Assembly: GCF_024808815.1 (NCBI RefSeq)
Contig: NZ_JANUCS010000002.1
Coordinates: 1 to 64,000, forward strand
Length of the DNA: 64,000 bases
Source of the DNA: Methanosalsum natronophilum
GTDB taxonomy: Archaea; Halobacteriota; Methanosarcinia; Methanosarcinales; Methanosarcinaceae
Direction: 5' to 3'
The notes beneath the pieces were generated by a model. That model saw nothing but the letters and a program-made list of their open reading frames with translations, had not been told where the DNA came from and made no database searches. Each line of letters begins with the position of its first letter. Within the stretch, counting starts at the first letter, position 1. The position numbers and the translations under genes are program-made. Shown piece by piece: positions 10,338 to 58,624 of this stretch.

Positions 10338-10369
10338 GGTTGAGAATAGGAATAGGTTAATTCTCAGCC
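10338..10369. terminator. inverted repeat between convergent pdxT and rps6e
   Basis: GGTTGAGAAT and ATTCTCAGCC pair over 10 positions (one G-U) around a 12-base loop. One arm overlaps the last codons of rps6e on the minus strand. A position between convergent genes suggests a shared 3'-end hairpin, but there is no long T-run on either side. Confidence 0.35.
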
Positions 10370-10764
10370 TCTACATTTTCTTCAGAACCGCCACCAAGAA
10401 TTTCTTCAATCGACTTATCACCATAAGAAATTACTTTAGTATTGATTTGAACTGTATCTGTTGCGATTTCACGACCATGCATTAATTTTCTTCTACGAAC
10501 ACCTTTTGATTTAGGAGTATAACCTACACTTTTAGAAACTAAGATCTTGCGCCTTTTTGGGCCAGGAATATCTCTTCTCATAACTACTCCAGTTTTATCG
10601 CTTCCACCAGTGACCTTCAGTGTATATCCTTTAAGCCCTAAGATGTTACCATCAAAATTATCTCCAATTGACTTACCTAACAATTTATTTGCTTCGGAAC
10701 CTTTTAGATCAAACTGATATGTTTTTGACTTTGGATCCGAAACTACTACTTTAAAATCTGCCAT
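10357..10764 (-). CDS. rps6e: 30S ribosomal protein S6e
   Basis: A 135-residue archaeal S6e with the family's N-terminal FKVVVSDPKSKTYQFDLKG and the basic GPKRRKILVSKS block. It lacks the phosphorylated C-terminal extension of eukaryotic S6, as expected for archaea. A GGAGGAG ribosome site is 7 bases before the ATG. It is the last gene of the rpl7ae-rps28e-rpl24e-ndk-aIF5B-rps6e run, 68 bases after the initiation factor gene. Confidence 0.95.
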   Translation of the reverse strand: MADFKVVVSDPKSKTYQFDLKGSEANKLLGKSIGDNFDGNILGLKGYTLKVTGGSDKTGVVMRRDIPGPKRRKILVSKSVGYTPKSKGVRRRKLMHGREIATDTVQINTKVISYGDKSIEEILGGGSEENVEAEN

Positions 10765-10832
10765 TATTTCTCCTCCAATTGCTTATACAATTTGTTTCAT
10801 ATAATTTAAATTATTCAATGATTATCGTTATT

Positions 10833-12608
10833 TTACTTTGCCCAAAATGGGTTATCTTTTCTTTTAATATCTAAGAATGTTTCGAATGATTCGATTTCAT
10901 CTGCATTCAAAGAGTTATGTAATTCTTTTTCAAGCACCTTGGCATGCTTTTCAGGAACATTTACAAACAGTGTATCACCTTCTTTGAGTTGTCTACCAAC
11001 CGTAGGTCCATCAATAGCCATGGCTACTTCCATGCCAACTGTAGCTTTATTTATATTCTCACCCTCAAGTTGGAGACCTTTAACTTTCCCAATTACATCG
11101 CCCTCTGTAGTAGCTATCTCTACATTATTCTTTACAGTCCCACCTACTATCTTTACACCAACAACAGCTGGCTTACTTTGTCGGAAGACACAACCTGGCA
11201 TTACTAAGAATCTACCAGGTTTTACAATGAGTTCAGCAATATTCTTTTCGGATTTCTCTTTTTTCTCTGATACCCAGTCTTTATAGTCATCTATTAGTCT
11301 GTATATAACATCATTTTTGAAGACTTTAAGGTCTAAAGATTTCATCTTTTCTTTGGCATCTGGCAAAATATTCACATTAAATCCAATTATAACTGAATAA
11401 TAGAGATCGTCGATAGCACTTACTTCAATAACATCTCTTTGTGAGATATCTCCAACTCCAGCCTTGCGAATAGGTATTTCTTCTTTTGTTAATTCATTTA
11501 CAAGCGCTTCCAGTGAACCAATAGTATCGGCTTTTATAGTGACACCTTTAGTTCCTGTTGGCAATGTGACTTGGTCAAGTTCAGATTTAATTTCCCTTGC
11601 TACCTCATCAACATTTTCACTATTTGCAACTCTTAGAGGAGTTCCTGCTAATGCCTCATCTAATGATGGTGCAGCAATCTTTACACCTATTGCAGCAGTT
11701 ACTTCATCTACAGCTTTGAATTTTTCCTCTGTATGGATTTCTTTCAAAGGACTTGGCTTCAACAATGCCCTTACTTTTGTGACAATAGGATCACCTAAAC
11801 TGCCAACTACAACTGTATCTCCCTTCTTCAGCTTTCCATCGTATAAAATTAGATCTATTGTAGTTCCAAGACCTTTTTCTTCTTTGATTTCTAGTACCGT
11901 TCCTATCCCAGGATTATTGGCATTAAAGTGTAGGTTAGATTCTAAGAATTTTTGAGCTAGTCCTAAAAGAACCATAAGAATATCAGGTATTCCCTCACCG
12001 CTTAAAGCACTGATTGGAACTATGCCTATATTTTTTTGGAAATCCTTTACTCGGTCATACCTCTCAGAGTTAAATCCCTGTTCGTATAATTTTCCAACTA
12101 GTTCATAAGTCTTGGTATCTATTATTTGCTGTACATAATCATTCTGTTTATTGAAAGCTTGAGAAAATGGTTCGTTAGGACAGCTTCTCCAGCCAGAAAT
12201 TCGATCAACCTTATTAGCTGCTACTAGGAAAGGAGTTTTAAAACGTTTGAGAATTTGAAGACTTTCAATAGTTTGAGGCATGAATCCTTCATTGATGTCA
12301 ACAATTACAATAGCTAGATCTGCAAGTGCACCACCACGGCTTCTAAGTGAAGTAAAAGCATGGTGCCCAGGTGTATCTATAAAAAGAAGTCCAGGAACTA
12401 TGAATTGATTTAGCAATTGTGGCTGTCCACATTTATTTACAATTGTTTCTATAGGAACTTCAGTTGCACCAATGTGTTGTGTAATAGCACCAGCTTCCCC
12501 TGATGTCACAGTAGTACCTCTAATTTTATCTAAAAGAGATGTTTTACCATGATCTACATGACCCATAACACAAACTATTGGTGTTCTCAATGTATCCTGC
12601 TTTCCCAT
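10833..12608 (-). CDS. infB: translation initiation factor aIF5B (IF2-like)
   Basis: A 591-residue GTPase that promotes ribosomal subunit joining and initiator tRNA placement. G motifs are clear: GHVDHGKTSL (P-loop), DTPGHHAF (switch II) and NKVD. The long N-terminal extension of bacterial IF2 and eukaryotic eIF5B is absent, which is the archaeal form. Beta-barrel domains and the C-terminal MPGCVFRQSKPAVVGVKIVGG region follow. It sits between ndk and rps6e on the same strand, with gaps of 69 and 68 bases. Confidence 0.96.
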   Translation of the reverse strand: MGKQDTLRTPIVCVMGHVDHGKTSLLDKIRGTTVTSGEAGAITQHIGATEVPIETIVNKCGQPQLLNQFIVPGLLFIDTPGHHAFTSLRSRGGALADLAIVIVDINEGFMPQTIESLQILKRFKTPFLVAANKVDRISGWRSCPNEPFSQAFNKQNDYVQQIIDTKTYELVGKLYEQGFNSERYDRVKDFQKNIGIVPISALSGEGIPDILMVLLGLAQKFLESNLHFNANNPGIGTVLEIKEEKGLGTTIDLILYDGKLKKGDTVVVGSLGDPIVTKVRALLKPSPLKEIHTEEKFKAVDEVTAAIGVKIAAPSLDEALAGTPLRVANSENVDEVAREIKSELDQVTLPTGTKGVTIKADTIGSLEALVNELTKEEIPIRKAGVGDISQRDVIEVSAIDDLYYSVIIGFNVNILPDAKEKMKSLDLKVFKNDVIYRLIDDYKDWVSEKKEKSEKNIAELIVKPGRFLVMPGCVFRQSKPAVVGVKIVGGTVKNNVEIATTEGDVIGKVKGLQLEGENINKATVGMEVAMAIDGPTVGRQLKEGDTLFVNVPEKHAKVLEKELHNSLNADEIESFETFLDIKRKDNPFWAK

Positions 12609-12677
12609 CTTTGAAGACTCTCCCCTAATAAGATTTGATTGAAATCAAACTTAAAAATGTAATTAGGTGTTTTTTAA

Positions 12678-13127
12678 TCACTCATAGAGGCAGGGCTCAT
12701 CTATCTTCGCATAGTCTACAATTTCATTATCATTAAAATGTAGAGCTATTTCTTTATCAGCTGACTCCTTTGAGTCTGATGCATGAACCACATTTCTACC
12801 TGTTTCAATAGCAAAATCACCACGTATGGTTCCAGGTGTAGCTTCTACTGGGTTTGTAGACCCATTGATTGTCCGCATGATAGATATTGCATTTTTTCCT
12901 TTAACTACCATTGAAACTGAAGGCCCTGAAGTAACATAAGATATCAAAGAACCAAAAAATGGTTTATTCTCATGTTCAGCATAATGTTTTTGAGCTTTTT
13001 CTTCACTGATAGTATTCATTCTAAGAGCCGCTACTTTTAGTCCTCGCTTTTCAATTCGAGAAATGATTTCGCCTACAAGACCTCGTTGAACACCGTCTGG
13101 TTTAATCATTACGTAAGATTCTTCCAT
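12678..13127 (-). CDS. ndk: nucleoside diphosphate kinase
   Basis: A 149-residue NDP kinase that equilibrates nucleoside tri- and diphosphates by a phosphohistidine intermediate. The active-site histidine is in RNVVHASDS; the N-terminal [15 protein letters not shown] and the Kpn-loop region are typical. Its place between rpl24e and aIF5B is the usual euryarchaeal arrangement, with a 15-base gap from rpl24e, so it is co-transcribed with the translation genes. Confidence 0.97.
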
Positions 13128-13142
13128 TTATATACCCCATAT

Positions 13143-13331
13143 TTATTGCTTTTTGAGATATATTCTACCTTGTTCGGTCCATACTGTACGCCTTGGGAGT
13201 CTACCCAACTTATTGTTGTTCTCACATTTAGATGAACAAAAATAATAAGTTGAACCATCTTTCTTAGCATATAGAGATCCACAGCCTGGTTGAAGTAGTT
13301 CACCACAAAATGAACATTTTCTTTGTTCCAT
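13143..13331 (-). CDS. rpl24e: 50S ribosomal protein L24e
   Basis: A 62-residue zinc-binding ribosomal protein. Two cysteine pairs (CSFC near the N-terminus and CSSKC about 25 residues later) form the zinc site, and the tail [15 protein letters not shown] is typical. Spacing to rps28e (9 bases) and ndk (15 bases) shows an operon. Confidence 0.95.
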
Positions 13332-13340
13332 TAGATACCA

Positions 13341-13556
13341 TCACCTTGTAGTTAATTTCTTTGCTTCTCTAGATGTTTCTAGTAACATAAATACATCGCC
13401 GATTCTAACTGGCCCTACACAGTTACGTGTAATTATTCTTCCCTTATCTCTACCTTCAAGAACACGACATTGTATCTGACTGGCTTCTCCATGCATGCCT
13501 GTATTACCTATAACATCAATTACTTCAGCTGCAAATCCAGTGTTATCATCTGCCAT
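13341..13556 (-). CDS. rps28e: 30S ribosomal protein S28e
   Basis: A 71-residue OB-fold protein of the small-subunit platform with the family core [20 protein letters not shown] and the C-terminal [11 protein letters not shown]. The frame has ATGs at 13577, 13571 and 13556; I choose 13556 (MADDNTGF) because it gives the usual family length and has GGGGAA upstream, though initiation at an earlier ATG cannot be excluded. It lies between rpl7ae and rpl24e. Confidence 0.93.
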
Positions 13557-13588
13557 ACCAAATTTCCCCATCTTCATTTATGATTTAT

Positions 13589-13948
13589 TCATTCATTAAG
13601 AGAGTTGATCTTTTCAGTGATATCATCAACTAACTCTTTGCCTTTACCTGCATCAGTTATTGCTACTGCTGCACATGCAACTCCTATTCCACAAGCTGCA
13701 CCAAGTTCTTTTTGTTCCTTGACAAAGATATAGGGTGTATTCTTCTCTTCACATAGTACTGGTAGGTGTGCTATTATTTCCTCAGGAGTTACATCCTCTG
13801 CAATTATGGTTATTTTTGTAATACCACGCTCTATTGCTTTCGTAGCTTCATTAGTCCCTTTTTTTACTTTACCGGTATCTCTTGCCATTTCAAGTGCTTC
13901 GAGTGACTTATTGACTAACTCTTCTGGAACTTCGATTTTCTTTATCAT
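13589..13948 (-). CDS. rpl7ae: 50S ribosomal protein L7Ae
   Basis: A 119-residue K-turn-binding protein; in archaea it acts in the ribosome, box C/D and H/ACA RNPs and RNase P. Signatures: [12 protein letters not shown] and LVIIAEDV-like [11 protein letters not shown], then [15 protein letters not shown]. The frame is open to 14002, but AAGGAG 9 bases before ATG 13948 decides the start. It opens the translation operon. The ribosome site abuts a 14-bp hairpin with kink-turn-like flanks (see the leader entry), suggesting autoregulation. Confidence 0.95.
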
Positions 13949-13957
13949 TTTACATTT

Positions 13958-14001
13958 CTCCTTCAAAATCACAATATTTAGAATATCGTGATTTTTCATC
14001 A
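13958..14001 (-). promoter_or_regulatory. rpl7ae leader hairpin with kink-turn-like base overlapping the ribosome site
   Basis: On the minus strand the leader reads TGATGA, then a 14-bp stem (AAAATCACGATATT against AATATTGTGATTTT, one G-U) with loop CTA at 13965-13995, then GAAGGAG. The 5' GA preceded by three unpaired bases, facing a 3' GA at the same stem end, is the arrangement of a kink-turn; TGATGA equals a box C. The outer stem is weak (two possible pairs). The 3' GA runs into the AAGGAG ribosome site (13958-13963). L7Ae binds kink-turns, and autogenous control through a leader kink-turn has been described for another archaeal L7Ae. The function here is inferred. Confidence 0.5.
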
Positions 14002-14017
14002 ATCATTGTATTTTATT

Positions 14018-14030: not shown

Positions 14031-14207
14031 TAATTTGAATTATTGTTAATTTTATTTATTTTAGCTAATAGCTAACGTGTTTTAGTCAGAAAACCAAGCT
14101 AACTATTTTGGTTTAATGAATATTTCTTTTACATAAATACCTTATGCTAATAATATAATGCAGCTACAATTGCATACTAATGTATAAATCTTCTGATTCA
14201 AGTGAAG

Positions 14208-14237
14208 TTATTATGATATGATGATATATCATAATAA
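14208..14237 (-). terminator. 12-bp perfect hairpin just after a stop codon
   Basis: TTATTATGATAT and ATATCATAATAA form a perfect 12-bp inverted repeat with a 6-base loop, directly downstream of the TAA stop (14238-14240) of the secreted-protein gene. No T-run follows, so it may protect or end the mRNA rather than act as a classical intrinsic terminator. Confidence 0.45.
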
Positions 14238-15095
14238 TTACATTTCATCTGGCTCAATTGGTTCGCTTAAAACTAGTTCAAATGAACCTTGAATAGTTAC
14301 TTTCAAGATATCATCTATTTCTTCAACCGTATACTCCAAATTATCAGTTTCAGAAAGATCATCGATTAGCTCCACAAGTTCTTCACTTGGATTTTCATAT
14401 ATTGCCTGACGAGCATATTCATTAGTATCTGTCCCAGCATAACCAACGTACAATAGATCAAAATGATTGTTACCTGATCCAATAACCTGTTGGAATTTAT
14501 GTTCATTGACATCAGCATATTCTAAAATAGATTCAAATTGGTCATTTCCTTCTTTTTCCTCAACTATAATGTCAATAAATGACTCTATATCATTTTGCTG
14601 GCCTAAAGCCATTGGAGTTCCTATCGACATAAAGTATGCTTCACCAACTGGTAAAATTGGATAGTCTTTGTGCATATAAGGTTCACCAAAAGGAATACCT
14701 ATATGGTCATCTTCGATCGTAGATAATTCAAATGATGATTGCTGACCTGTTACTATATATGTATTAATCAATTTAGAGTTAAACATACGTTCAATATTAT
14801 CAAGACTTTCACCAAAAAGCATTTCAAATGATGTACCTCTTACTTTTGAAACGTCAACAAATTGTGCAGAGGCTACTTCTCCAGGAGTTAAATCTAATGC
14901 ATCTGATATTGAGTTTATAGGACTATTTACAGTTTCCCCAGGTATTGCATTAAAGGGAATTGGGTCCATTCTTTCCTGTTCTTGTTCATCATTTTGTTCT
15001 GGTGGAGATATGGCCGTGAATGCAATTGCAAAAACTGCCCCTACCATTATAACAGCTAAGAAAATAGCGATATACTTGAGGTTGTTGTTATTCAT
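14238..15095 (-). CDS. membrane-anchored extracytoplasmic protein of unknown function
   Basis: A 285-residue protein with one N-terminal membrane helix (about residues 6-27, IAIFLAVIMVGAVFAIAF) followed by a proline- and glutamate-rich linker and an acidic globular domain. I do not recognise a family. The domain has no cysteine pairs or obvious catalytic motif. The frame opens at 15170, but the ATG at 15095 (MNNNNLKY) has GAAGGT about 8 bases upstream and begins immediately before the anchor. An outward-facing, possibly sensor or substrate-binding role is only a guess. It is followed by a 12-bp hairpin and lies upstream of the rpl7ae operon. Confidence 0.75.
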   Translation of the reverse strand: MNNNNLKYIAIFLAVIMVGAVFAIAFTAISPPEQNDEQEQERMDPIPFNAIPGETVNSPINSISDALDLTPGEVASAQFVDVSKVRGTSFEMLFGESLDNIERMFNSKLINTYIVTGQQSSFELSTIEDDHIGIPFGEPYMHKDYPILPVGEAYFMSIGTPMALGQQNDIESFIDIIVEEKEGNDQFESILEYADVNEHKFQQVIGSGNNHFDLLYVGYAGTDTNEYARQAIYENPSEELVELIDDLSETDNLEYTVEEIDDILKVTIQGSFELVLSEPIEPDEM

Positions 15096-15220
15096 GTTGA
15101 GTACCTTCACTGTGATTTGTGTTATTAAGAAGATCCATTTTATATTAACTATTCGCCACAAATATATCATAATTTAAATATAAATATATTGTAGTTACAG
15201 TTCAGAACCATTTAATTTAC

Positions 15221-22853: not shown

Positions 22854-24473
22854 TTATTTATTAGCTCCAAAGAATTTCTTTAAAATACCTTTATTGCTCT
22901 TTTCAGATTTTCTTGTAGGCCTTCTTTTAGGTGGAGGATTTGCGACCGTTTCTTCAGATGAAGATGGACTCTGTTCCACTTTATTAATATTAGTTGATTT
23001 GTATTTTTTATTAGTCTCAACAACATCAACTGATTCACCACCATGTTTTGTTTTTCTTGTCCTTACATCTATAAGTATTGGTCTTTCTACTTCATTACTA
23101 ACAAGCATTGCAATACCGGGTGGAAGTCTTTTTAGCTCTTCTTCAACATAAGAAGTAACTCCTTCAAGACCTTTACTTATAGACTTGAGATCGTTTGGGT
23201 TTGTTACTTTCATAATTATTTGGGTCCCACATTGTGATAATATATTCTTATCAATTCTAGCGGGACGTTGTGATATTACCATCAATCCTAGTCCAAATTT
23301 TCTACCCTCAGAAGCAATTGTCCGCAATATCTCTGAACTCGGTGTTTTGCTGAAACCTCTTTCTGGCGCAAAGTTATGGGCTTCTTCAATAACCAGCATC
23401 ATTGGTGGGATTTTGTTTAACTTACGGGCCTCAAAAAGAGATGTACAAAGATGAGATACCAGCATTCCTTGAATGTTTGGAGGTACTCCTTTGAAGTCTA
23501 TTATAGATGCTTTTCCCTTCTCAATTAGTCCTTCAATTGAAGTTGGATTAGGTGACAGAATTTCAGTATCCCTTATTTCTTCAAGGTAGTTTACAACATT
23601 CCATCTGGCTTTACTTTCATTGTTTGCAACTTCAAAGATAACATCGTCAAGTGAATAACTTTCCATTTCTGCACGAACTTTCTGTACAGCTTCGTATAAA
23701 ATTCCTACATGAGTATTTGTAGAATTATCTGGGAAAATTGAAATTATATCCCTAACACTCAAGTTCATGCCATTTATTCTAAATACTTCATCTGCATCCT
23801 GATTAATGGCTTTATTAGCAGGAGTATATACCTTAATCTTAGATCCATAACCTTTTGATGATATCTGGTACTTCTTTTGAGATTCTGAATCGATAGACCC
23901 TTCTTTCTTTAAAGAAGAATATTCGCTATGTGGATCTATTATAAGTAAAGGTATTTTATTGTCAAGTAGTTCTTCCAACAAAACACTGGCCGTGTAAGAT
24001 TTACCACTACCTGTTTTTGCAAGTATGCTACAGTGTTTTTGAACAAGACTATTTACACTAAGATTTACAGGAATACCGGTTCCATCGAGCAACCCTATAT
24101 ACATATCCTTCCCATACAGTCCAAGAACAGAACAAATTAATTTATTATCCGCTTTATAAATCTTATCACCCGGGCTAAAAGGTATCGTAGGTGCCCGAAG
24201 TAAACCTGTCTTGTTTCTGCTCCCTATCACTGTTACGTCACCAATAATATTCTCCTCGTTTCTATCTGGAAGTTTTCCATTTTTAGCTTCTTCAAATGAA
24301 AAATTGTCGCTTGAGCTTATTAGCGAAACTACTTGCGCTAATACCCAGCCATCAGTTTCATGCCATATTTTTATGTATTCCCCTCTTTCAACTGCCGTAC
24401 TTTCAGAAACTAAAAACTTAAACTCAAGTGTACCTGTTTTACCAACAATAACTCCAATTGAATCTTTAACCAT
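22854..24473 (-). CDS. herA: HerA-type bipolar DNA translocase ATPase
   Basis: A 539-residue protein with an N-terminal HAS-barrel-like domain and a C-terminal hexameric ATPase: Walker A AKTGSGKSYTASVL, Walker B MLVIEEAHNF, and an arginine-finger region SQRPARIDKN. HerA works with NurA in end resection during recombination, but no nurA is beside it, so the protein could belong to a related DUF87 subgroup. The frame opens at 24509; ATG 24473 (MVKDSIGV) has GTGAG upstream and is preferred. The tail (about 70 residues) is charged and disordered. Confidence 0.82.
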   Translation of the reverse strand: MVKDSIGVIVGKTGTLEFKFLVSESTAVERGEYIKIWHETDGWVLAQVVSLISSSDNFSFEEAKNGKLPDRNEENIIGDVTVIGSRNKTGLLRAPTIPFSPGDKIYKADNKLICSVLGLYGKDMYIGLLDGTGIPVNLSVNSLVQKHCSILAKTGSGKSYTASVLLEELLDNKIPLLIIDPHSEYSSLKKEGSIDSESQKKYQISSKGYGSKIKVYTPANKAINQDADEVFRINGMNLSVRDIISIFPDNSTNTHVGILYEAVQKVRAEMESYSLDDVIFEVANNESKARWNVVNYLEEIRDTEILSPNPTSIEGLIEKGKASIIDFKGVPPNIQGMLVSHLCTSLFEARKLNKIPPMMLVIEEAHNFAPERGFSKTPSSEILRTIASEGRKFGLGLMVISQRPARIDKNILSQCGTQIIMKVTNPNDLKSISKGLEGVTSYVEEELKRLPPGIAMLVSNEVERPILIDVRTRKTKHGGESVDVVETNKKYKSTNINKVEQSPSSSEETVANPPPKRRPTRKSEKSNKGILKKFFGANK

Positions 24474-31021: not shown

Positions 31022-32038
31022 TCATAGAACTGTTGGGAGTAATAATGCAGCTAATCCAAAATAAATAATCAAACCGCTTACATCTTTAACGGTGGTTATC
31101 ATTGGATCAGAAACTGCAGCTGGATCGTATCCAACTTTATTTACAATCCATGGAATTACAAATCCTATAATTGATGCTAATAAACAAACACTTAATAATG
31201 TTAAAAATATTACAAGTGCAAGCTCAAAGACTCCTTGCCACAAATAAGCTATTAGAGCACCAATCACTCCTACTAAGAATCCAATCATCAAACCAACTTG
31301 TCCTTCGGAAATAAAGTGTTTTATAGCATTTTTATCGTCAATATGGCCTACAGCTAGTCCACGTACAAAAATTGTAGAGGCTTGAGTACCTACATTTCCA
31401 CCCATATCCATAATAACAGGTAAGAAAAATGCTAATGCAATAACAGCTTGCAGAGATTCCTCGTATCCTTCAATAACAACACCTGCAAGTAGACCACCCA
31501 TTAAAGCGAACAAGAGCCATGGAATACGAATTCGGAGAATATCCAAGGGTGAAGATTCAAGTATAGCATAGCTCCTAGAAACCTCAGCGTCAGAGAAAAC
31601 CATACCAGCACTTTTGAATATATCCTCTGATGCTTCTTCTTCAACCACATCTAACATTTCCTCTGAACGGATAATTCCAACTAGATTATTGTTAGTTCCT
31701 ACAACTGGTAATGCTCTATATGCCACATCAGACATTTTTCTAGCTGCTACTTCTATATCCTCTTCTTCATGTAAAAATGTTACATCTTTTTTCATGATAG
31801 CTTCTACAGGAAGAGTCCCTTTAGCATTAAGCAAGTCTCGAAGTGACAATACTCCAATAAGTTGCCCATCGGTATTAATCACGTATATATAATATATCGT
31901 AGTCTCTTCAGCTTCTGGTCGATAATATCTGAATCGAGAGATTGTATCTTCTACATAGGTATCTTTATCAACTGAAAAATATTTTTCATCCATTACATCT
32001 TTAACAAGATTTGCGTGAATGTTCTCATCATCATCCAT
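31022..32038 (-). CDS. mgtE: MgtE-family magnesium transporter
   Basis: A 338-residue Mg2+ channel/transporter. It begins directly with a CBS-domain pair (about residues 10-130) and lacks the superhelical N domain of bacterial MgtE. Five membrane helices follow from about residue 170, with the conserved PVIMDMGGNVGTQAST and DPAAVSDPMITTVKDVSG, the latter holding the ion-site aspartates. GAGGAGG at 32046-32052 is 7 bases before ATG 32038; the ATG at 32044 is too close to it. Its mRNA leader contains an M-box riboswitch, which directly supports magnesium as substrate and regulator. Confidence 0.94.
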   Translation of the reverse strand: MDDDENIHANLVKDVMDEKYFSVDKDTYVEDTISRFRYYRPEAEETTIYYIYVINTDGQLIGVLSLRDLLNAKGTLPVEAIMKKDVTFLHEEEDIEVAARKMSDVAYRALPVVGTNNNLVGIIRSEEMLDVVEEEASEDIFKSAGMVFSDAEVSRSYAILESSPLDILRIRIPWLLFALMGGLLAGVVIEGYEESLQAVIALAFFLPVIMDMGGNVGTQASTIFVRGLAVGHIDDKNAIKHFISEGQVGLMIGFLVGVIGALIAYLWQGVFELALVIFLTLLSVCLLASIIGFVIPWIVNKVGYDPAAVSDPMITTVKDVSGLIIYFGLAALLLPTVL

Positions 32039-32153
32039 AATCATTCCTCCTCGATTCTATATCAAAAAGTTCAACACTTCGAATACTACTGATTTAACTT
32101 TGTTTGACCAGAAGACAGAGCTTTTAGGTTAAAAGGAAAGTGTACAATAATAC

Positions 32154-32355
32154 CTTGCTAACGAAATATGAAACCATTTCTTAGTAACACTCTCCTAGTT
32201 CAGTTTTGGCATAATCAAACGTAGAATAGAATCCGAACTTCTATTCAGCTGGATTGGTAGAGCCTTAAGCCGACAATCCCTGCTTTACCCATTGGCATCT
32301 CTCGATGTTTTTGGGCACCAGCCTATGTTTCAAAAGTAACCTCACCCAACAAGGT
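32154..32355 (-). promoter_or_regulatory. M-box (ykoK) magnesium riboswitch in the mgtE leader
   Basis: The minus strand carries the M-box core in order: GGGTGAGGTTA, CTGGTGCCCAAAAA, GATGCCAATGGGTAAAGCAG, GTCGGCTTAAGGC, CCAGCTGAAT, and TTATGCC. These match the B. subtilis mgtE leader blocks GGTGAGG, CTGCTGCCCAAAAA and GCCAATGGGT in sequence and order. ACCTTG (32350-32355) pairs with CAAGGT (32154-32159) to close P1. No T-run terminator follows; mgtE begins about 115 bases further on behind GAGGAGG, so control could be translational or by mRNA turnover. M-box RNAs are known to me chiefly from bacteria. Confidence 0.88.
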
Positions 32356-32361
32356 GTTCTG

Positions 32362-58519: not shown

Positions 58520-58624
58520 TGGACCGGTCGGGATTTGAACCCGAGGCCTCTACCATTTTGGATGTTCCACATTTAATTGGAGAACAATTGCCAAGGTAGC
58601 GATCTTCCCCTGATCTACCGGCCC
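58520..58624 (-). tRNA. tRNA-Ala (GGC) with 33-base intron
   Basis: Acceptor GGGCCGG/CCGGTCC contains the G3-U70 pair that identifies alanine tRNA. D arm GATC/GATC, anticodon stem CTACC/GGTAG, T arm TCGGG/CCCGA, discriminator A. The intron (58556-58588) interrupts the anticodon loop after position 37. A bulge-helix-bulge is visible: 3-base bulge CAA, 4-bp helix TTGG/CCAA, 3-base bulge AAT, cut after the second base of each, giving the mature loop TTGGCAT. Mature length 72; CCA not encoded. Confidence 0.93.

Follow-up and report, generated by a model that had tools for sequence, protein, structure and literature searches.

An rpl7ae leader of Methanosalsum natronophilum with a probable kink-turn at the ribosome site and a proposed second kink-turn module upstream

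Described l7ae leaders and the M. natronophilum locus

L7Ae autoregulation was shown in Sulfolobus by Daume 2017 (PMC5539422), who also obtained repression of an E. coli reporter with the leaders of Archaeoglobus fulgidus, Haloferax, Methanosarcina acetivorans, Thermococcus and Methanococcus; in that paper the leader RNA is described as highly conserved in sequence in Sulfolobales only. The crystal structure of the A. fulgidus leader kink-turn (k-turn) with L7Ae was reported by Huang 2019 (PMC6298567), together with in-line probing in which the ribosome site of this leader was hidden once L7Ae was bound. The models in the latter paper contain one k-turn per leader.

The DNA analysed here, referred to as the window, is a stretch of 64,000 nucleotides of M. 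natronophilum (contig NZ_JANUCS010000002.1), belonging to a genome of 2.03 Mb in 46 contigs. Its minus strand carries rpl7ae, with the ATG start codon at 13948-13946. The first-pass annotation placed L7Ae first among six operon genes and our gene calls agree, the order being L7Ae, S28e, L24e, NDK, an IF2-type factor and S6e (Table 1). The five genes after rpl7ae (10357..13577, minus strand) are presumably co-transcribed with it, and the gene order from L7Ae through IF2 is conserved in relatives. The protein sequence of the window L7Ae keeps N33, E34, K37 and R41, the residues that read the k-turn according to the contacts given in PMC6298567. On the same strand, the gene at 14238-15170 encodes a protein of 310 aa with a hydrophobic N-terminal stretch and without a Pfam match, and directly past its stop lies a long AT-rich palindrome (14206-14238; 12-bp arms, 6-nt loop), probably a terminator-like hairpin.

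The leader resembles the published l7ae 5'-UTR k-turns in preceding the same gene, in its RAU/GAU bulge followed by tandem GA and in the position of the Shine-Dalgarno sequence (SD) inside the putative C-helix, and it shares a terminal loop on the NC side with some of them. The M. acetivorans leader tested in PMC5539422, from the same family as the window, has the same design. In contrast to the A. fulgidus leader, which is unstructured without protein (PMC6298567), the window leader has a preformed NC hairpin of 13-14 bp that is stable without protein. The inner strand UGAUGA reads as box C, as in the k-turn of box C/D sRNAs; unlike these, the window RNA is an mRNA leader with UGAAGG as partner strand, and assignment to the box C/D sRNAs was rejected, since box D CUGA is absent opposite box C, where the strand reads UUUUGAAGGAG.

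Table 1. Features of the rpl7ae leader and operon in the window
Feature	Position	Strand	Basis
rpl7ae (L7Ae/eL8), 119 aa, presumed ligand	13589..13948	-	Pfam PF01248 E 4.5e-28; PDB L7Ae matches
S28e, downstream in rpl7ae operon	13577-13341	-	
L24e, downstream in rpl7ae operon	13331-13143	-	
NDK, downstream in rpl7ae operon	13127-12678	-	
IF2-type factor, downstream in rpl7ae operon	12608-10833	-	
S6e, downstream in rpl7ae operon	10764-10357	-	
Shine-Dalgarno AAGGAG	13958..13963	-	sequence; AAGGA invariant among parsed leaders
G, last SD base, proposed closing partner of C 14008	13958	-	
Second non-bulged GA (n2), within SD	13960-13959	-	
AG of SD, inter-module strand	13962-13961	-	
Inner k-turn non-bulged-strand GA (n1)	13963..13964	-	invariant in parsed leaders
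NC-side hairpin, 14-bp stem, loop CTA 13981-13979	13965..13995	-	z -3.37; covariation 7/7 scored pairs
Outermost hairpin pair, 3b:3n position	A13995-T13965	-	
Inner bulged strand (b2): GAT bulge 14000-13998, GA 13997-13996	13996..14000	-	L2, L3, GA invariant; L1 mostly R
Inter-module dinucleotide TT, against AG 13962-13961 (U-A and U.G)	14001..14002	-	-1 pair U-A in 84/92 distinct cores
Outer bulged strand (b1): C 14008, AAT bulge 14007-14005, GA 14004-14003 opposite the SD's own GA	14003..14008	-	Methanosarcinaceae conservation, 2-nt spacing
TATA-like stretch, 19 nt before C14008	14022..14033	-	TATA distance varies across family

The inner k-turn and its conservation

Read from 14008 to 13958 on the minus strand, the leader is C-AAT-GA-TT-GAT-GA-AAAATCACGATATT-CTA-AATATTGTGATTTT-GA-AG-GA-G. 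The elements listed in the first-pass annotation, namely TGATGA, a 14-bp stem, a 3-base loop and GAAGGAG, were all recovered from this sequence. The stem contains 13 Watson-Crick pairs and one G.U, the two GA dinucleotides (13997-13996 and 13964-13963) oppose each other at its base with the three unpaired bases GAT before the first, and the SD overlaps the second, thus beginning within the motif as had been claimed; the rpl7ae ATG follows 9 nt after the SD. The fold beats 200/200 dinucleotide shuffles. In the protein-free prediction the SD is mostly unpaired, but should an outer stem UACA/UGUA be formed, the unpaired value of two of its bases falls to 0.32-0.38. The short outer stem, which had been named as the weak point, is indeed one for this species. 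The window offers one canonical outer pair plus the possible UACA/UGUA, and the latter is missing from the congener G001 (a closed genome of 2,138,444 bp).

The leaders of 50 relatives were collected via l7ae protein matches. ATGA together with a stem of 4 bp or more that directly abuts GAAGGA was found in 44/50 of them, compared with 0.9 expected from shuffles, these counts including related, non-independent genomes. Every parsed leader has AU at L2-L3, the opposed GA dinucleotides and AAGGA around a hairpin of variable sequence, so that the GA pairs are conserved in relatives as the first-pass annotation required, although the parser itself requires ATGA and GAAGGA, whose constancy is thus not independent evidence. 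The stem covaries: among 34 aligned Methanosarcinales leaders compensatory double changes occur at 7/7 scored pairs, 94.0% of the stem cells are paired against 71.3% in shuffles (0/500 reach the observed value), and sliding the strands against each other always leaves pairing below 49%. Both the conservation of the sequence geometry and the covariation of the stem are direct observations. In one relative, a 126-bp direct repeat duplicates the leader element together with the opening codons of l7ae (L050 1-321; G043 C29 2950-3270), the first copy hitting a stop, and represents either a recent duplication or an assembly artefact.

For a covariance model (R1) constructed from the Methanosarcinales leaders, rpl7ae is the single strong match of the genome (E 3.3e-10). 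When 147 genomes of the phylum were scanned with the model, which is blind to gene position, the 13 best matches outside the family (E <= 0.0035) all lay directly before l7ae, and the model thereby recovered leaders of this gene from other orders. A second match in the window (23157-23223) was discarded as a regulon copy, being located inside a long coding frame with an E value of 0.04, and nothing recognisable as the element was seen by eye in the nop5 leader of this genome. In Rfam the leader matched no family above its gathering cut-off.

Two other RNA matches were recorded on the minus strand of the window. The first, at 32184-32360, is a strong match to the M-box (magnesium) riboswitch (Rfam RF00380, 123.5 bits, E 3.4e-27), upstream of an ORF (31022-32044, minus strand) whose product resembles MgtE magnesium transporters with CBS domains; riboswitches of this class are known mainly from bacteria. 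The second is a tRNA match at 58520-58624, which at 105 nt is longer than usual and possibly contains an intron.

A k-turn at the rpl7ae ribosome site, and therefore autoregulation by L7Ae, is strongly supported by the invariant core and the covarying stem. The part of the first-pass interpretation that did not hold is its novelty as a euryarchaeal version of crenarchaeal autocontrol, euryarchaeal cases having been published in 2017 (PMC5539422) and 2019 (PMC6298567). This kind of feedback is already known in archaea and the new part is a second module upstream.

A second RAU-GA module and its possible readings

A second RAU-GA module occurs exactly 2 nt upstream of the inner one, and the GA opposite it, inside the SD, is likewise 2 nt off. 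The strand is made up of C, RAU, GA and WU, followed by the inner RAU and GA, and its upstream part is itself a k-turn bulged strand. Since the modules are 2 nt apart on either strand, the outer GA falls opposite the GA of the SD (G13960, A13959); C14008 is opposite G13958, and a Y:G pair would close the outer module. The interval given by the first-pass annotation stops before this second conserved module (14001-14008), and the element is probably larger than it described.

Conservation has a sharp edge at C14008. The base at this position (-8b) is C in 30/30 distinct Methanosarcinaceae leaders (2.0 bits); the columns upstream mostly carry 0.1-0.4 bits, with 0.7-1.1 bits in a few A-rich columns just before it, and those from C(-8b) to the inner bulge carry 1.4-2.0 bits, except -7b at 0.89. 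The full tandem pattern was detected in 93/150 l7ae leaders against 0.15 expected from shuffles, and in 118/150 by a looser parse of which four f10 cases look spurious, the relatives in these counts not being independent of each other. A whole-genome pattern search of 60 relatives placed 36 of 39 occurrences before l7ae, with one match in the reversed control; beyond Methanosarcinaceae, the pattern precedes l7ae in 45 places (11 families) and lies elsewhere in 16. Within the 60 relatives, one place away from l7ae carries the pattern, G004 C1 1526272-1526307, and it is shared by three congeners, its copies being in G017 and G036. In the family labels used here, f1 appears to be Methanosarcinaceae, some of f9 Archaeoglobus, f6 Methanotrichaceae, f5 Methanoperedens, and f17 and f21 Methanocellales; the motif is absent from f3, part of f4, most of f10 and the haloarchaea-like families. 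Archaeoglobaceae-like leaders (L114, L115, L205, L206, L224-L238) contain the element in its shortest form, with the inner hairpin reduced to a 6-9 nt loop (k-loop-like) and both RAU-GA modules intact.

On the basis of this pattern, we propose a tandem k-turn that would bury the whole SD, with all SD bases paired. We put at about even the chances that such a tandem is present in the l7ae leaders of the Methanosarcinales, the Methanocellales, the Archaeoglobi and several other families of their phylum. The entire SD would then be closed by two L7Ae molecules, or by one together with a second kink that is already ordered, the feedback would be steeper than that of a switch with a single site, and the A. 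fulgidus k-turn as published would be an alternative register of the double element. A quite possible alternative, to which we give somewhat less credence, is that the inner k-turn (b2:n1) alone is real and that CRAUGAWU is kept for an alternative register, a start-site signal or L7Ae contacts, with no second kink.

The spacing of the modules argues against the inner k-turn alone. In leaders anchored on the inner hairpin alone, the upstream RTGA of b1 is exactly 2 nt from b2 in 77/90, any other spacer occurring at most 5 times, and n2 stays 2 nt from n1 even though the spacer may be AG, AA, AU or GU. The same is true of the outer helix, whose pairs are formed in 58.2% of cells compared with 52.6% in shuffles (0/2000 reach the observed value) and with 34-43% when the strands are slid. 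Of 92 distinct cores, 59 have C-G and 23 have U.G as the closing pair -8b:-5n, the -1 pair between the modules is mostly U-A (Table 1) and is C-G in one genus, with both sides changed (L213, L254), and where the SD continues as GGUG the outer strand lengthens to suit (AGCC, TACT, GACT and CGCT facing GGUG). Other data favour the inner k-turn alone, namely the single k-turn of the published models in PMC6298567, the single Watson-Crick pair of the Methanosarcinaceae outer helix and the lack of b1 in f3, the haloarchaea-like f13, f18 and f22. Position -2, the would-be 3b:3n of the outer k-turn, is also mostly non-canonical and mostly A.G, and spacer pairing is not above chance, its observed value being reached by 1625/2000 shuffles. 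Within Methanosarcinales the lower (C) helix is devoid of Watson-Crick covariation, and a plain Watson-Crick C helix, of which only the -1 U-A pair holds, was rejected; the formation of the lower helix rests on conservation and on the published examples, and this helix would end in a C-G pair if a second tandem GA module is included.

As for a start-site signal, an initiator behind the conserved strand was rejected, as several families have a TATA-like box 30-42 nt upstream, or none, and keep the strand; C14008 alone could be the initiator base in some leaders. The TATA-like stretch of the window would place the transcript start, with some uncertainty, near or just inside the element, and an RNA starting close to 14008 could clip the outer module.

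The tandem strand of the window recurs in a genome of 2,178,400 bp (G149), which we take to be A. fulgidus and whose leader reads GCC-GAU-GA-AU-GAU-GA-UUUGAU-GA-AG-GA-GGU. According to Huang 2019 (PMC6298567), the A. fulgidus k-turn has A:U at 3b:3n and C:A at -1b:-1n, with -3n and 5n changed to restore pairing. We infer that the only register to fit these features is the one in which the outer (first) bulged-strand GA pairs with the first GA. In the tandem register, C-G, C-G and G.U would instead form over the SD, with all four GA used and no mismatch.

Two adjacent k-turns would not be unprecedented, because a double kink-turn module has reportedly been described in euryarchaeal RNase P RNA; going by the title of that report, it comprises two adjacent L7Ae-binding kink-turns in one RNA, as proposed here. 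The RNase P RNA of this genome has no copy of the tandem strand, and the leader was therefore discarded as a mimic of that RNA. Engineered double k-turn units (PMC5058347) likewise contain two k-turns in one duplex, but these are arranged head-to-head, their loops lying on opposite strands at a distance of ten base pairs, whereas both bulges of the window are on one strand, 2 bp apart. A second upstream module pairing with the SD's own GA is discussed in neither PMC5539422 nor PMC6298567, and a partial literature search returned no published description of a tandem k-turn in an l7ae leader.

A role of the hairpin only as a stabiliser of the mRNA 5' end or as a processing signal, with no part for L7Ae, would suit a hairpin that is stable and lies close to the predicted 5' end, but would need neither the invariant RAU-GA and GA nor the association with l7ae only, and is very unlikely. 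Even less probable is a short leader ORF opened by the conserved RTG of b1 and controlling rpl7ae translation: ATG or GTG is present there in 49/54 distinct leaders and the window ORF has 18 codons, ending ATGTAA before the gene start, yet the predicted uORFs vary in length from 5 to more than 20 codons and fall in any of the three frames with respect to rpl7ae, and close relatives differ by frame-shifting loop changes. A DNA operator for a transcription factor, with an incidental RNA hairpin, would suit a stem that is a near-perfect 31-bp inverted repeat near the TATA-like stretch, but is scarcely credible, since the repeat is a single site in the genome, allowing <=3 mismatches, and in relatives its sequence changes freely with pairing kept, the reverse of operator behaviour.

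Proposed feedback and its reach

The data taken together make it highly probable that the leader acts as a translational OFF switch responding to L7Ae, the SD being hidden on L7Ae binding by a fold that probably includes the second RAU-GA module. The strong hairpin would form by itself and leave the SD open, so that the first gene of the operon is translated. L7Ae in excess of its rRNA and sRNA targets would then bind the RAU-GA/GA kink-turn at the hairpin base and fold the strands below it, covering AAGGAG. The same fold would probably take in the second RAU-GA module, 2 bp further out and facing the GA of the SD, and closure of this outer module by C14008-G13958 would leave every SD base paired. 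One or two L7Ae may be bound per leader, and repression may extend to the five downstream genes.

L7Ae is common to the ribosome, RNase P and the rRNA-modifying sRNPs, and its feedback therefore sets the balance of several machines. A covariance model is now available for this family, which is absent from Rfam 15, and with the compact rule Y-NAU-GA-NN-NAU-GA, hairpin, GA-NN-GA-G, the element can readily be spotted across a large part of the phylum. In M. natronophilum the feedback possibly covers five further genes, most of them related to translation.
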